Shown here: piece after piece, positions 7,894 to 16,115 of the stretch
Numbering within the stretch: the stretch's first letter is position 1
Layout of the letters: every line of letters begins with the position of its first letter
Assembly (NCBI GenBank): GCA_937944295.1
Contig: CALDZL010000067.1
Span: 1-33,698 of the forward strand
DNA: 33,698 bases
DNA from: an uncultured Sphingorhabdus sp.
GTDB lineage: Bacteria > Pseudomonadota > Alphaproteobacteria > Sphingomonadales > Sphingomonadaceae
Direction: 5' to 3'
The notes under the pieces: model-generated
The model's input: only the letters and a program-made list of their open reading frames with translations
Told to the model about the DNA's origin: nothing
Database searches by the model: none
Translations under genes and position numbers: made by a program

Positions 7894-10365
7894 TTAATGG
7901 CGCAAGCGCTCAATTGCCTGTGCTAGAGCCACATATAATTTGCCCACGTCGGATGATAATATTGTAACGCCTATAGCATTACCATCACGGGTACTAAGTA
8001 AAACCCGCATCATAGCCTCAAAATCATGGATATAGCGATTTACATGGTCGCGAAACTCCATATTTTCATCATAATGGGAAACGATTAACTTGGCTTCACT
8101 TGCTGTTAATAATTTAACGGCACGGCGAGTAAATACACCTCTATCACCTTTAAGATAGGCCGCCCAAGCTGTATCTGTAACATCGTTAGATATAATCTTA
8201 GCAACATCAATTGCAGTAGAATTAAGCGATTCAGTCAGTAGCGCCATTTGGCGAGAAAAACTCTCTTCACCCACATTGGAAAATCCGACGGAATTATCTT
8301 CGAGACGTTTTTCTAAATTATCGGTCATTTCTTCGATAACTGATAATTGCGATTGCAATTTGGCCACATTTTCGCTGGCCGCTTTGACATGTATATCAAG
8401 CGATATTTGCAGATTATTCTCAATGGCGGCGACTTGTTTGTCGATAGTCTCTTGAATGATGGTTGAACCATTTTCGGCTATTCTTTGGGAACTAAAATCT
8501 ATTTTTTCGCTTATAGCTTCTCTGGAAAATTCTAGGCTTTCGGATATTTGATTGTTCACATTCTTAATCTGTTCAGCGAAGATACCATTTGCGCTATTGC
8601 TAATCTCTTCCAATGCGGCTTTGCTTTCCTGAAGGGTTGATAAAATTTTGTTGATTTTATCATTGTTCAAATCGGCCTCATTATTTTGCTTTTCTAATAG
8701 GGCTTCTATCTGATCTTTAGAGGCGGATAATTGCTTTTCTATAGCACTATTTTTCTTGTTAACTTTATCACTATGCTCTGATAATTTTTTGATGTTAGAG
8801 AATGTGGATTTGAAACGGGCTTCGACCAAATCAAATGTTTCATCTAATCTTTTGACAGAGGCTGGTATGGTTTCATCTAATTCACGCGAACTAGTATCTA
8901 GGGCTAATAATAATTTTTCAGAGCGCTCTATCAATAGTTCTGCCTGCGCATGATTATTTGATAGGCCTTGTTCAACGCTGTCGCTATTTTCTCTAAGAGC
9001 AGTCATAGCAAAAGCCATCTTAGCCGTTTGTGCAGATGCTTTGTCGCTAATGACATCAATTTTCTCTTGGCTCTTATCAATATGCTCTCGAATTTTAGCT
9101 ATCATATCATTGATATGATTATCTTCCATATGGTTGCTATCAATCAAGTCTTGCAGAGCAAGCGAGAGTCTCTCAACATTTTGATGGAGATTATCGGCAA
9201 TTTCCTGACTTTGCGTGTCGAGTTTATTACTTGTCTCACTGATGGCAAGATCAAATTCATTATATTCTGATTTTATTGTTGCAGCAATCTCTCTAATCTC
9301 ATTTTTGGTTTTGTCTGACATTGCTTCACTAAAAGCTTGGAGTTCTTTTGTTTGCGTTAAAATATCATTTGAGACTAATTTATTTTGTAGTGATAATTTT
9401 TCTAATTCTTGAAGATTAAGAGTGCTTGCTTCATTACTATCTTTCAGCGCAAGTTCCAAAGAACGCACTTGCGCAATGGCTTCCATTCCAGTTTTTCCGA
9501 TTAAATTGGTTGCATCTTTAGCCGCACTGTTAACAACGGGAAGTTTCCTGCTTAATAATTCTAAATTTTTGTGCGTTGATTCACTGACTTTCTCTAAAAT
9601 ATCTGCTTTTTGAGTACTGTTATTGAGGGCATATTCAATTTTTTGCGAAGCATTAACAATATTCTCAGCGGTATGCCGACCAATATGTTCAAGGTCTTGG
9701 CTATATTGAGAGAGAAAATCTCTTGCTAAGGCAATTTCTTGATTAACTTCACGGACCTTATCTTCAACATTTTGCGCCTCAATACGAAGGCTGTTTGAAA
9801 CATCTCCAAAGCGCAATGCCTCTGCTGTGCTATTACGCATGAATAAGAGCCAGCTTAGTGCGATTAGGATTATCGGTGTTGCCCAGTTAATAATAAGCGA
9901 TGAGATTTGCTGAAAAGTGATAGCAGGCGTTAAAATATTGAGATTTGAGATTATAAAAAAAGCGCTCCAAGCGAGTGCGACAGAAATAAAGAAAATGGGT
10001 ATGAAATAAGCTGTTAATGATCTGGATGTATTTTGGTTATAAGTTTCATCATAAACCCATTCATTCTCAGTATTTTGATTTGTGTCATAATCTGTTTCAG
10101 AGCCATCACTATTAGAAAGCTGATTGTCAATTAAACTATCATCCACAGCGTTTAAATTATAATTTTTATCTAAAGAAACAGCTTTCTGTGGTGTGTAAGC
10201 CATAAAATTTTCTCCATTATTATAAGAGAGAAAATCTATACCTTTACGATAAATGGGTTTCTCTTTATTATAAGAAGGTGCTGATTTATCAGAAAAAAGA
10301 TAATCCTCTGTACCATTTTCAATGGATGTTGGTTTCTTAATATTATGTTTCTTTACCCCAGTCAT
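7894..10365 (-). CDS. Large membrane-anchored coiled-coil protein of unknown function; alternative start at 10203
   Basis: Two TM segments (AYFIPIFFISVALAWSAFFIISNL and WATPIILIALSWLLFM), about 500 aa of heptad-rich helix, then a compact C-terminal domain (DTAWAAYLKGDRGVFTRRAVKLL...DHVNRYIHDFEAMMRVLLSTRDGNAIGVTILSSDVGKLYVALAQAIERLRH). Confidence 0.85.
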   Translation of the reverse strand: MTGVKKHNIKKPTSIENGTEDYLFSDKSAPSYNKEKPIYRKGIDFLSYNNGENFMAYTPQKAVSLDKNYNLNAVDDSLIDNQLSNSDGSETDYDTNQNTENEWVYDETYNQNTSRSLTAYFIPIFFISVALAWSAFFIISNLNILTPAITFQQISSLIINWATPIILIALSWLLFMRNSTAEALRFGDVSNSLRIEAQNVEDKVREVNQEIALARDFLSQYSQDLEHIGRHTAENIVNASQKIEYALNNSTQKADILEKVSESTHKNLELLSRKLPVVNSAAKDATNLIGKTGMEAIAQVRSLELALKDSNEASTLNLQELEKLSLQNKLVSNDILTQTKELQAFSEAMSDKTKNEIREIAATIKSEYNEFDLAISETSNKLDTQSQEIADNLHQNVERLSLALQDLIDSNHMEDNHINDMIAKIREHIDKSQEKIDVISDKASAQTAKMAFAMTALRENSDSVEQGLSNNHAQAELLIERSEKLLLALDTSSRELDETIPASVKRLDETFDLVEARFKSTFSNIKKLSEHSDKVNKKNSAIEKQLSASKDQIEALLEKQNNEADLNNDKINKILSTLQESKAALEEISNSANGIFAEQIKNVNNQISESLEFSREAISEKIDFSSQRIAENGSTIIQETIDKQVAAIENNLQISLDIHVKAASENVAKLQSQLSVIEEMTDNLEKRLEDNSVGFSNVGEESFSRQMALLTESLNSTAIDVAKIISNDVTDTAWAAYLKGDRGVFTRRAVKLLTASEAKLIVSHYDENMEFRDHVNRYIHDFEAMMRVLLSTRDGNAIGVTILSSDVGKLYVALAQAIERLRH

Positions 10366-10433
10366 ACTGTCTGTTTACCATATTTTTTGTGCTTAGAAAG
10401 GTAAAGTTAACATATTAGCCCTAAACTTATCAT

Positions 10434-10736
10434 ATGTCCGCTGATTATGGTTCCTTTGCAACAGCTATTAAAGAAGCTGCAGGTGATGATATTGTACTAA
10501 TGTCAGAGCTTCGTATAGCTTTTTTTGATAGTGCTGATCGTCAACTTGATCTTTTAAGTCGTTCACGTTGTGATGCCAATTGGCAATATTCAGCGTGGAG
10601 GCTGCAAAGTTTAGCGGCAAGCTTTGGTGTAGAAGATATTAAAAATTTAGCGCATGCAGCCGTTGTAGGTGCACCAGGTGATCCTGTTGTGCTTCGGGAA
10701 TTGGGTGCAGCTATTGAAAAAATTAGAGACTGCTGA
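10434..10736 (+). CDS. Hpt-like four-helix protein with the phospho-acceptor His replaced by Trp
   Basis: DANWQYSAWRLQSLAASFGVEDI aligns by eye with the Hpt motif AAHxLKGxAxxxGA; W55 sits at the His position. Confidence 0.7.
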   Translation: MSADYGSFATAIKEAAGDDIVLMSELRIAFFDSADRQLDLLSRSRCDANWQYSAWRLQSLAASFGVEDIKNLAHAAVVGAPGDPVVLRELGAAIEKIRDC

Positions 10737-10856
10737 GTATAGAGACCTCTGGTTATAGCGTGAAGTTACGCCTATTCTTAAAAGAATAAAAATTCCAATT
10801 CTAATGCTATCATGTTAATATTAGGCCTGTAATAGGCTATTGAAGGATTTAAGTCA

Positions 10857-12047
10857 TTGGTTAGCATAGCTCTGTTAATGATCGAACAATCTCATAACAA
10901 AATCGCTACAGAGCAGATTAAAGTAGCAGGGGAACCTCTATTATATCACCAAATCGTTCAGCTTCGTAATTTTGGGATTAGCCGTTTCATAATAGCTGTA
11001 GAAAAAATCGATTCAATGACGCTGCAAATAGCTACAAACCTGCGCAGCGAAGGGATAGAAGTTGAATTTATAAGCCGCTTAGATGCTTTAGGTGATATAT
11101 TAGCAAGCGATGATTCATTTTTGATGATCTCTGATGGCGTATTGAGTAGCGATAAGCATATTGAAAATATGATGAATGCGCTTTCTTCTGAAATATTGGT
11201 GTTTGAGAATGATGATAAATTATCACGATTTGAATTAATTGATTTGAATTATCGATGGAGTGGCTTGGCAAGGTTAACAGGTGATATATTATCTTCTATT
11301 GAAAACCTGCCTGAAGATTCTGCCATTCAATCCACTTTATTGCGTATAGCACTACAACAAGACTGTATGTTAAAAGTCATAGAATCTGTGCCATCATCAT
11401 TGATAAGAATTACGGAACGATCTGCTGCCAAAAGTCTAAGCGAAGCTAAGATAAAATCTTCTCTTAAAGCTATCAATTTGCGAGGTTTCTGTGAAACTAT
11501 ATTATTCTACCCACTCATTCGTTTTTTATTACTCTATTTGTGGAGAGGTGGACAGTTTTCACTCTTGAATAAATATACCATAAATTATGGCTATCTTTTA
11601 TTTTTTGCTATAGCTATTATTTTCGCAATATTAGGATTTAGCATCGCTTCTTATATATTGGCAATTATAGCTTATTTTTGTTGCTGTTTTAGAAAAATCC
11701 AAAATAATTTAAAACCTAATGCAGATATTAAATCTGTGCAAATAATTAGCGATGTAAGTATATTCCTCATATTGATAGTAACAGTTCATACCAAAGATAA
11801 CCTTTGGAGCGTTAGTGGTGCCATTATAATATTTTTATTAGGATATTCTGCCCAAAGATTAAGTTTTGAGATAAATTATAATCGCTTTATTTTCTCATTT
11901 TGCGATATATTCTGCCTTATGGTTTTGGCTCTAATATTCGACATACAATCCTATGCAATAATAATAATATCTATATTATATGCTTTGTGGATATTTGGTG
12001 GAACAATCCTGTTGAACTCTCAGATTAGTGATAATTTAAAAAAATAA
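10857..12047 (+). CDS. Membrane protein with a degenerate nucleotidyltransferase-like N-terminus and a polytopic C-terminus resembling a degenerate CDP-alcohol phosphotransferase (TTG start)
   Basis: IKVAGEPLLYHQIVQLRNFGISRFIIAVE resembles NTP-transferase beta-alpha-beta; several TM helices after about residue 215; no GxGxR loop and no DGxxAR...D...D motif. Confidence 0.65.
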   Translation: MVSIALLMIEQSHNKIATEQIKVAGEPLLYHQIVQLRNFGISRFIIAVEKIDSMTLQIATNLRSEGIEVEFISRLDALGDILASDDSFLMISDGVLSSDKHIENMMNALSSEILVFENDDKLSRFELIDLNYRWSGLARLTGDILSSIENLPEDSAIQSTLLRIALQQDCMLKVIESVPSSLIRITERSAAKSLSEAKIKSSLKAINLRGFCETILFYPLIRFLLLYLWRGGQFSLLNKYTINYGYLLFFAIAIIFAILGFSIASYILAIIAYFCCCFRKIQNNLKPNADIKSVQIISDVSIFLILIVTVHTKDNLWSVSGAIIIFLLGYSAQRLSFEINYNRFIFSFCDIFCLMVLALIFDIQSYAIIIISILYALWIFGGTILLNSQISDNLKK

Positions 12048-12076
12048 TAAACCATCACTAAGTCTTCAAATTAAGC

Positions 12077-12116
12077 TTAAAACGAAATTAACTTTAATGC
12101 GCTAATGAGATAATAG
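12077..12116 (+). promoter_or_regulatory. Candidate CtrA-dependent promoter: TTAA-N7-TTAAC (12077-12092) over the -35, with -10-like TAATAG (12111-12116)
   Basis: Sequence read TTAAaacgaaaTTAAC; TTAACT then a 17-nt spacer then TAATAG, ending 18 nt before the GTG at 12135. Confidence 0.55.
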
Positions 12117-12134
12117 ATTAGAATAGGAAATTTT

Positions 12135-13118
12135 GTGTCTCAGGATTTTGAGCAAATATCATTTATGGAAAATGCGATGCAATGTGCGCGCAGTCTTACG
12201 GCTGCGCGGCGCAGTTTGCCTTATCTTATTTTCCCAGTAAATAGCTTCCCTATCGATGAATATTTATTATCGAATATAAAAAACAGTCTTTATAAAATTA
12301 TATATAATATTGAATGCTCAATTTTACAGCATGCAGAGATGTATAATAAAATTTCAGATAAGTCCCAAGCCTATCCCATATTGATGGAATCTGGTTTGAT
12401 GAATGATCCTGTTATTTTAGATGAACTTTTATCAATTTTTCGATTACAGAATCTAATATCGAGCAGTGATAGTGGTGAACATATTGCGGATAATTGGCGT
12501 AATGAGGCCAATGTGAGCAGATTTTCAGGTGATATTAAAGAGTGTTTAAATACTTTATCATTGGGTTTGAGCCGCGCTAAATCATTTGAGCTTGGTAATT
12601 TTTATGAACTTTCACCTGAAAATCTGCATCTAATAACATGGCGTATTTTAGCAACATTTGAGATTATTGATGGGGCAATTGATCCCAAATTAATGGATGC
12701 CACCCAAGATTGGTTGAATTGTTATAATGAAGCCGAGACAATAATGGCCTCTTCAGGTAAATTAATGTATTTACTACGCAATAACCCTAATTTAGAAATA
12801 GAATCTTTTTGGCGATACCGACATATAAATGCACCATTATTTATTGCATTATTAGAGTATAAAACATCGCTTAATAGATCTATGATTTTGGCTGTTTTGA
12901 CGGATAGATCACCGCTTCTATGCGCTTTATTATTTAGAGCTGTTGATATGGATAAAAATATAGCATTAGAAAATTTATCTATCATATTTAAAAAACAAAA
13001 GATTATGAGTAGTAATATATTTGTACAGATATCTGATGAATATCTATCGGTAGAACCCAAGATTGCATTACAAAATTTACATGAATGGTCAGATATAATG
13101 AGGTTGAAAAGTGGATAA
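12135..13118 (+). CDS. Predicted all-helical protein of unknown function (GTG start)
   Basis: Long ORF overlapping the next gene by 8 bp; helical composition, no recognised motif. Confidence 0.75.
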   Translation: MSQDFEQISFMENAMQCARSLTAARRSLPYLIFPVNSFPIDEYLLSNIKNSLYKIIYNIECSILQHAEMYNKISDKSQAYPILMESGLMNDPVILDELLSIFRLQNLISSSDSGEHIADNWRNEANVSRFSGDIKECLNTLSLGLSRAKSFELGNFYELSPENLHLITWRILATFEIIDGAIDPKLMDATQDWLNCYNEAETIMASSGKLMYLLRNNPNLEIESFWRYRHINAPLFIALLEYKTSLNRSMILAVLTDRSPLLCALLFRAVDMDKNIALENLSIIFKKQKIMSSNIFVQISDEYLSVEPKIALQNLHEWSDIMRLKSG

Positions 13119-14490
13119 TATCTCCGATGATATGATCATAGCTCATGTTGATGCAGATGGAAAATTGCTTTTTGCAGACCCTGCGTTGCGAAGGTTGCAC
13201 ATCCAAGCAGGCGGAAGCGATAATGGTAAATTTGCCATAGCGGCATTAGCGCGGATAGCGCAATTGACGCATAAATTAAAATTACCATTATCAAGAATGG
13301 TCCAAGTTGCAGATGATGGTTTTGATATTTCATTATGGGTTGATAGCCATTTAGAAGATAATATAGCCATATTATCGATATTAAATTGGAATGAAAAAGA
13401 GATCAGAGGATCTAAGGTTTCTGAAGAAGATGCATTACTATTTAATGATTTAGGTGAAGATATATTATTCTTAACAGATGATAATAGCGATATAATCTCA
13501 TTTCAGACTGGCAAGCGTAACGTGGAAAAATTCAGTAATTTTCTGGGTAAAAATATTTTCGATATATTGGATATCAATGACGATATACACGCAAATATTG
13601 AACAGACATTTGAGAGTAAAGATGAAATTGAAAGTATCATTATCAATTTGAATCAATATTTGGAACCTTATGACTTTTCAGCGATTACAAGGCTTAATGA
13701 TAAAGATGAGTTTTTAGGTTATGAATGTTATTTGAGCCCAATTACCAATGAATTTAAATCTAATGAAATTAATGAATCTGATAAAGATGATGTATCAGAA
13801 ATAAATATTGATGATATTTATCAAAATATGGTGGCGTCTCAATTAGCACCAGCAATTCGCCAGCCATTGGGTCGAATAATTGCGAATGCCGACACAATAG
13901 GCAGTAAATTAAACGGACCAATCAGAGAGAATTATGCCAATTATGCTAGAGATATTGCACGTGCTGCTCGTCATTTGGTAGAGATAATTGACGATCTTGG
14001 TGATTTGCAGGCAATTGAAAGACCAGATTTTAATATCGCCAAAGATGATATAGAATTGCATGATGTTGCTGACCGATTGGCGGGACTTTTAGCCCTAAAG
14101 GCTAATGAAAAGTCTATTGAGATTATTACGCCAGATAAGAATGATATGATCCATGCTGTTGGTGAGTTTAGGCGCGTGTTACAAATTGGACTTAATTTAT
14201 TGACCAATGCGATCCGATATTCGCCAAATGGGATAAGCGTTAGGATTATTGTTGGTTACGATAATGATATGGCATTTTTATCGGTACAGGATGAAGGTCC
14301 TGGTATTGATAAGCAACAGCAAGAAAAAATATTTGAAAAATTTGAAAGGCTGGGTCGAACTGGCGATGGAGGAAGTGGTTTGGGTCTATATATTTCAAAC
14401 CGCCTTGCAATAGCCATGGGTGGCAGCCTCAATATTGAGAGTGATATTGGTAAGGGGGCCTGTTTCACGCTTCATTTGCCTAAAAAATAA
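13111..14490 (+). CDS. PAS-like sensor histidine-kinase-type protein lacking the H-box histidine (GTG start)
   Basis: C-terminal HATPase: NLLTNAIRYSPNG (N), DEGPGID (G1), FEKFERLG (F), GGSGLGLYISNRLAIAMGG (G2). DHp segment reads LAPAIRQPLGRIIANADTI with no His. Confidence 0.9.
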   Translation: MDNISDDMIIAHVDADGKLLFADPALRRLHIQAGGSDNGKFAIAALARIAQLTHKLKLPLSRMVQVADDGFDISLWVDSHLEDNIAILSILNWNEKEIRGSKVSEEDALLFNDLGEDILFLTDDNSDIISFQTGKRNVEKFSNFLGKNIFDILDINDDIHANIEQTFESKDEIESIIINLNQYLEPYDFSAITRLNDKDEFLGYECYLSPITNEFKSNEINESDKDDVSEINIDDIYQNMVASQLAPAIRQPLGRIIANADTIGSKLNGPIRENYANYARDIARAARHLVEIIDDLGDLQAIERPDFNIAKDDIELHDVADRLAGLLALKANEKSIEIITPDKNDMIHAVGEFRRVLQIGLNLLTNAIRYSPNGISVRIIVGYDNDMAFLSVQDEGPGIDKQQQEKIFEKFERLGRTGDGGSGLGLYISNRLAIAMGGSLNIESDIGKGACFTLHLPKK

Positions 14491-14526: not shown

Positions 14527-15813
14527 TTAACGGTTTTCAACAGGAATATAATCGCGCTGTTCTGGCCCTGTGTAAAGTTGGCGGGGGCGTCCAATTTTTT
14601 GACCAGGATCAGAAATCATCTCATTCCATTGTGCTACCCAACCCACGGTGCGTGCTAATGCAAATAATACTGTGAACATTTCGGTCGGAAAGCCAATTGC
14701 TGATAATATGATACCTGAATAGAAATCAACGTTGGGATAGAGTTTTTTCTCTACAAAATAAGGGTCATTAAGAGCGATTTGTTCTAACTCGCGTGCCACG
14801 TCAAAAATAGGGTCAGTTACGCCCAATTTGGTCAATACTTCGTCTGCCGTTTTTTGCATAACGGTTGCGCGTGGATCATAATTTTTATAAACACGGTGAC
14901 CAAAGCCCATTAGACGGAATGGATCATTTTTATCTTTTGCACGCGCAATATATTCTGGAATACGGTCAACCGTACCAATTTCGCGCAGCATATTAAGGGC
15001 TGCTTCATTAGCCCCGCCATGCGCAGGACCCCATAAACAAGCAATTCCAGCAGCTATACATGCAAATGGGTTAGCGCCTGAGGATCCAGCCAAACGCACG
15101 GTAGATGTTGAAGCATTTTGCTCATGATCTGCATGTAATATAAAGATACGATCCATAGCGCGTTCAATAACGGGATCTACTTTATAGTCTTCTGCGGGAA
15201 CTCCAAATGTCATACGCAAGAAATTACCAGGATATGAGAGGCTATTATCTGGATAAACAAAGGGCTGTCCTATAGAATATTTATAGGCCATAGCCGCAAT
15301 AGTTGGCATTTTTGCAATTAAGCGATGACTTGAAATTTTACGATGTTCTGGATCATTAATATCTGTACTGTCGTGATAAAATGCACTTAGTGCACCAACA
15401 ACGCCGCACATAATAGCCATAGGGTGCGCATCACGGCGAAATCCGCTAAAGAATTTTGCTAATTGTTCGTGCAGCATTGTATGATTTGTGATGGTTGCTT
15501 TAAAAGTCTCTAACTCATTTTTGTTTGGTAATTCTCCATTAAGCAACAAATAAGATGTTTCCATGAAAGTAGAGTGTTCGGCTAATTGGCCGATAGGATA
15601 GCCGCCATGCAGCAATATACCCTTTCCCCCATCAATGAATGTAAGATCGGATTCACAACTAGCTGTTGAGGTGAAGCCTGGATCAAATGTGAAATTATCG
15701 GTTTGTGCGTATAATTTTCTTATATCTATAACATCTGGGCCAGTTGTAGCTTTTAGCACGGGAAATTCATAGTCTTTACCGCTTACTGATATTTTAGCTG
15801 TTTCATTCGACAT
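14527..15813 (-). CDS. gltA: Citrate synthase (ORF track start 15846; ATG at 15813 more plausible)
   Basis: [21 protein letters not shown] start; [47 protein letters not shown] and [15 protein letters not shown] motifs. Confidence 0.97.
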
Positions 15814-16115
15814 ACATAATCTCCAGATTGGCGAGAGATGTATCACTCTCGCAAATGTTAATTCAAAATTTAAGTCCCATCAGGGCGATATTCACCAATT
15901 TTTTTGCTGCATTTCAATCATGAAATGGCTGCATCACTATTTTTATATCTATGATTTATATACCCATCATTTACGATATACTCTTGGGGAAGATCATCAT
16001 TTGATGCAGATTGGACATGGAAGAATTTGATCATAAGGTCAAGATAAAACATAATGTTAGAGGGTAATTATTGCTATGATTTATGGAGAAATGATAGATA
16101 GCGGGCCTTGGTTTT

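Follow-up and report, generated by a model that had tools for sequence, protein, structure and literature searches.

A block of five adjacent genes in an uncultured Sphingorhabdus sp. encodes an Hpt-like protein and a sensor kinase that retain the scaffolds of phosphorelay components and lack the acceptor histidines of both. The window, by which we mean the whole stretch of DNA analysed, comprises 33,698 nt (GCA_937944295.1, contig CALDZL010000067.1, positions 1-33,698, forward strand), and the block occupies 7894-14490. Conservation and selection of these proteins in the absence of their phosphoacceptors are well supported, and it is probable that they form one contact-based module. We assign a probability of about 0.5 to the reading in which a phosphorelay remnant now serves the CtrA/DivK network as a contact-based, DivL-like regulator, with putative partners discussed below. 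Missing acceptors, retained scaffolds, conserved adjacency and purifying selection together make contact signalling the most economical reading. The preliminary description had proposed such signalling in place of a classical relay; this part of its proposal is supported.

Composition and conservation of the block

The adjacency of the five genes, all of whose open reading frames were confirmed, is not a matter of chance, since the block recurs across the family. The leftmost gene (7894..10365, minus strand) encodes an 823 aa TIPN-like protein in which two transmembrane segments (residues 121-139 and 157-175) precede a long helical, coiled-coil region, as originally described. No Pfam family exceeded the cut-off for this protein. 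It carries a conserved C-terminal domain, W..YLKGDR..F.RR...SSD.GKLY..L.Q, which also adjoins Hpt in other families of the order. Its architecture resembles that of TipN, a polar membrane scaffold of Caulobacter; TipN has two N-terminal transmembrane segments and a coiled-coil. A divergent intergenic region of 68 nt (10366..10433; 55-95 nt in the loci used) separates the TIPN gene from that of the 100 aa pseudo-Hpt (10434..10736, plus strand), which is followed on the same strand by a membrane pseudo-nucleotidyltransferase (NT; 10857..12047), an all-helical protein (12135..13118) and the pseudo-histidine kinase (13111..14490), whose start overlaps the preceding stop by 8 nt.

NT bears out its earlier assignment: its N-terminus resembles MobA/GlmU but lacks the glycine-rich loop, three transmembrane segments are predicted, and its C-terminus derives from CDP-alcohol phosphatidyltransferases. 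The catalytic motif of the latter, D..DG..AR (PF01066), is absent in the core-clade NTs checked and present in most early-branching NTs encoded beside the inositol-1-phosphate synthase Ino1; outside the order, searches for NT orthologues returned distant CDP-alcohol transferases only. The fourth gene had been called an orphan, a label that probably has to be given up: 13 of the 25 members of its alignment match DUF2336 (PF10098; best 4.3e-63), and it is through these members that we provisionally assign the window protein, which does not match the profile on its own. A fold comparison of this protein gave no significant PDB match, and nothing on the function of DUF2336 was found in the literature searched. 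The adjacency of DUF2336 and kinase genes is already seen with His-bearing kinases.

Of 121 family genomes searched, 119 contain TIPN and 77 contain Hpt; many kinase orthologues were recovered as well, and 26 of the loci sampled in the family hold all five genes together. A gene order of RNase J, DUF1467, TIPN, Hpt, NT, DUF2336, kinase, gltA, ComEC recurs, complete or partial, in 60 regions; the block, usually with RNase J/DUF1467 on one side and gltA/ComEC on the other, is conserved across Sphingomonadaceae. By its named loci the window sits in or near Sphingorhabdus, and the block also occurs in named Sphingobium, Novosphingobium and Sphingomonas. In five genomes (G012, G093, G077, G044, G083) the TIPN-Hpt and DUF2336-kinase parts stand apart, NT accompanying either one, and in outgroup families of the order the divergent TIPN-Hpt pair occurs with the rest of the block absent. 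In most loci the citrate synthase gene gltA (14527-15846) and the kinase gene are convergent. A cell-cycle effect of citrate synthase CitA has been described for Caulobacter, in a study employing a tipN mutant background (PMC7083601), and the link may be coincidence.

Phosphotransfer scaffolds without acceptor histidines

Considered alone, the Hpt-like protein of the window matches Pfam Hpt (PF01627) weakly (E 0.16), and 16 of the 22 members of its alignment match the family (best 3.7e-9). AlphaFold2 predicts a helical bundle with high confidence (pLDDT 94), and phosphotransfer proteins, among them AHP1 (TM 0.76) and Caulobacter ShpA (TM 0.69), are its top matches in the PDB. The four-helix Hpt fold is thus retained, while the phospho-accepting histidine of HxxKG is replaced by Trp55 (codon 10596-10598), in keeping with the initial report of an Hpt-like protein without its His. 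Relatives carry W, L, Q, M, E, A, F, Y or S at this position. Two motifs, RxRCDxNW and APGDP, are specific to the clade; residues R43, R45, C46, D47, N49, G82 and P84 are each present in >90% of 98 pseudo-Hpts, a sample weighted towards Sphingobium and Sphingorhabdus, and are rare in 22 His-bearing relatives. At the Pfam cut-off the only Hpt in the window's own genome (86% complete) belongs to an ORF of CheA size. This ORF shares contig C36 with a gene for a CheY-like regulator (L349, L365). FlhA was not found in this genome, which may mean that the chemosensory genes operate without a flagellum or that the assembly has a gap. A link between the block and motility was considered and rejected: many genomes with an intact module lack FlhA, and several that have lost the module possess it.

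The kinase matches HATPase_c (E 3e-25) and HisKA (1.7e-5), and here too the loss of the acceptor is confirmed, with Pro247 (codon 13849-13851) in place of the H-box His. Nearly all orthologues have other residues at this position (Pro, Arg, Lys, Ala and others), and the acidic neighbour of the H-box His is gone as well. By comparison, the ATPase N, G1 and G2 boxes and the DHp are retained in 49 kinase sequences, with the N-box Asn and the G2 motif GLGL each in 49/49. The second DHp helix contains a conserved His; it is also present in His-bearing relatives and is therefore no replacement for the lost residue. Two kinases from one long-branched genus with small genomes (L119, L121) do have His at the acceptor position, within an altered H-box, IDHSFKP, and these loci are without an Hpt gene.

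In Sphingomonadales the DivJ-PleC-DivK system is degenerate (PMC2877005) and most known polarity genes, which are largely confined to Caulobacterales and Rhizobiales, are lacking (PMC8116508). The TIPN-Hpt gap contains NNAA-N7-TTAA in 26 of 29 thinned loci, where 0.78 would be expected, usually 27-31 nt ahead of the Hpt start codon; in the window the box reads GAAA-N7-TTAAC (10396..10411, plus strand), 27 nt upstream of the Hpt ATG. This fits the CtrA consensus of H. neptunium, TTAA-N7-TTAAC (PMC7200025), although TTAAC is similar to a -35 element as well. Among the early-branching and outgroup loci checked, a single one has the box, and in seven Hpt-less Sphingorhabdus loci it is mutated to TTATC. 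GANTC methylation sites in the same promoter are below chance. The genome that carries the window appears, by sequence reading, to encode CtrA-like and DivK-like regulators, a CckA-like kinase and a separate Tyr-type kinase (MSYELRTPL) that fits DivL. A DivK-like regulator was absent or damaged in 6 of 13 genomes whose kinase is likewise absent or damaged, and in 1 of 14 genomes that retain the kinase (Fisher p 0.033); the comparison, which includes reduced genomes, some MAGs and few independent events, is only suggestive because relatedness and genome reduction are uncontrolled, and several kinase-less genomes retain DivK. On the basis of the promoter, this co-loss and family logic, we hypothesize a DivK/CtrA connection of the block.

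Origin and maintenance of the His-less state

Early-branching relatives that still carry the histidines make a before-and-after comparison possible. The Hpt His is present in 18/18 outgroup-family loci and in early-branching members of the family, the kinase H-box His in early-branching L122, L123 and L124, and both together in L122 and L123. Homologues with His in both proteins point to an ordinary phosphotransfer system as the ancestor. On the TIPN tree, which was built by a quick method and has several long branches, the His/non-His state of Hpt changes once and that of the kinase twice (one loss, and the His of L119 and L121); the two losses fall at about the same place, and the replacing residues went on to change further (17 residue changes in Hpt, 15 in the kinase). 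Among the 50 loci with both genes, 48 have neither His, two have both and none is mixed. L125 appears to be an intermediate, with inositol genes retained, the kinase His lost and no Hpt detected. The preliminary description had held that homologues with an intact His in both proteins would mark the block as a decayed two-component system. Such homologues do exist, yet the state without His had a single origin and, in the core family, has become fixed and is under constraint, which argues for repurposing over mere decay.

The early-branching loci L122 and L125 (in part also L134, L226 and L227) further contain inositol-1-phosphate synthase, a MobA-like cytidylyltransferase, an NT with D..DG..AR and, in most, a Wzi homologue. 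They share Ino1, the cytidylyltransferase and the CDP-alcohol transferase with DIPP-type inositol-1-phosphate/CDP-inositol operons, from which core loci, the window included, differ in retaining only the motif-less NT. In L122 and L125 the run of these genes with a Wzi-type outer-membrane protein might serve an inositol-containing surface polymer or lipid. An Ino1 match with an internal TGA (G020:C10:592353-593441, L230) is possibly a decaying copy.

Selection was estimated as dN/dS over 13 pairs, a few values being missing because dS was saturated. Ranges were 0.01-0.15 for Hpt, 0.03-0.24 for the kinase, 0.07-0.24 for DUF2336, 0.03-0.28 for NT and 0.03-0.16 for TIPN. True decay is confined to one Sphingorhabdus subclade, in which Hpt, DUF2336 and kinase were lost together and TIPN and NT remain; relatives have Hpt fragments, split kinase ORFs and, in S. 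rigui, a 31-aa kinase stub. In 76 complete loci, Hpt, DUF2336 and kinase are all present in 45 and all absent in 14, while 11 have DUF2336 and kinase, four the kinase only, one Hpt and kinase, and one Hpt only. Tests of co-loss by independent pairs were not significant, with too few events. Hpt has been lost in several lineages that retain the kinase, so the two are not strictly interdependent. Persistence of TIPN and NT without the other three genes, loss of Hpt alone and the split of the block in five genomes all speak against the single five-gene system initially envisaged.

A proposed contact-based module, its alternatives and known parallels

In the scenario that we propose, the Hpt and kinase of a working phosphotransfer system lost their phosphoacceptor histidines at about the same point early in Sphingomonadaceae, after which Hpt, DUF2336 and kinase would have been kept for protein contact. 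The kinase, with its nucleotide-binding domain and DHp helix pair, would dock receiver domains, whose phosphorylation or dephosphorylation via the usual His is no longer within its reach; the neighbouring DUF2336 gene probably supplies its adaptor, and the pseudo-Hpt, divergent from TIPN, may offer a second docking surface for a receiver or scaffold. The module could sense or sequester a response regulator, most plausibly DivK, where TIPN and NT define a membrane site, and thereby adjust CckA-ChpT-CtrA signalling in the manner of Caulobacter DivL. The ancestral block would also have held an inositol-1-phosphate/CDP-alcohol pathway of which the NT shell is the sole remainder. A tentative, more specific version, in which kinase and Hpt lost their acceptors together to give a contact-only CtrA-network module with the former inositol-lipid enzyme as its membrane shell, is somewhat less probable. 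Homology, the missing acceptors and their single, coincident loss, purifying selection, the pattern of co-loss and the conserved promoter box are what the data show; receiver docking, the DivK/CtrA connection, polar localisation and direct contact among the five proteins are what we infer.

Three other explanations were weighed against repurposing. That a two-component system and an inositol pathway are simply being lost, with the survivors as chance relics, would account for the remnants in some Sphingorhabdus and for the prior loss of Ino1, IPCT and Wzi from most loci. It is very improbable and already disfavoured by the selection data, as dN/dS is well below 1 in every pair with unsaturated dS; it is also at odds with the retained ATP site and DHp, the newly conserved pseudo-Hpt motif and conservation across many genera since the histidines were lost. 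A kinase that is still catalytic, phosphorylating through another residue or acting only as a phosphatase, would explain why its N, G1 and G2 boxes are so highly conserved, and the helix-2 His could in principle be an alternative acceptor; L119 and L121 have a His at the original site. We consider this unlikely, given that the helix-2 His is shared with His-bearing relatives, that the H-box has lost its acidic neighbour and that the Hpt site is likewise without His.

Less easily set aside, though still rather unlikely, is the idea that two separate modules are neighbours here, an old TIPN-Hpt pair found in several families and a DUF2336-kinase pair, with NT between them. The pair that stands alone in outgroup families, the split blocks and the isolated losses of Hpt all fit this arrangement; the coincident loss of both His sites, the lack of mixed loci and the disappearance of Hpt along with DUF2336-kinase in Sphingorhabdus do not.

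Among known proteins, the closest parallel to the kinase is DivL of Caulobacter crescentus, likewise an alphaproteobacterial HisKA/HATPase scaffold whose acceptor His is replaced; DivL binds DivK~P via its DHp without phosphotransfer and can act as a DivK~P sensor (PMC4211667). DivL homologues have Tyr at the acceptor site, where the window kinase has Pro, and because the same genome has another kinase, of the Tyr type, that fits DivL, we read the window kinase as DivL-like in logic and not as DivL. We know of no pseudo-Hpt or DUF2336 partner for DivL. Plant pseudo-phosphotransfer proteins, AHP6 and its relatives, share with the pseudo-Hpt a fold without the phospho-His; they act as inhibitors alongside true Hpts. 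In contrast to AHP6, the pseudo-Hpt described here is encoded in a bacterial operon whose partner kinase is also without its acceptor His, and no bacterial pseudo-Hpt family was found in the literature searched. Pseudo-kinases such as DivL are familiar. If our reading is correct, the joint loss of acceptors in a kinase and a neighbouring Hpt, together with a third enzyme of the locus that has lost its catalytic function, would show that contact signalling can take over an entire relay.
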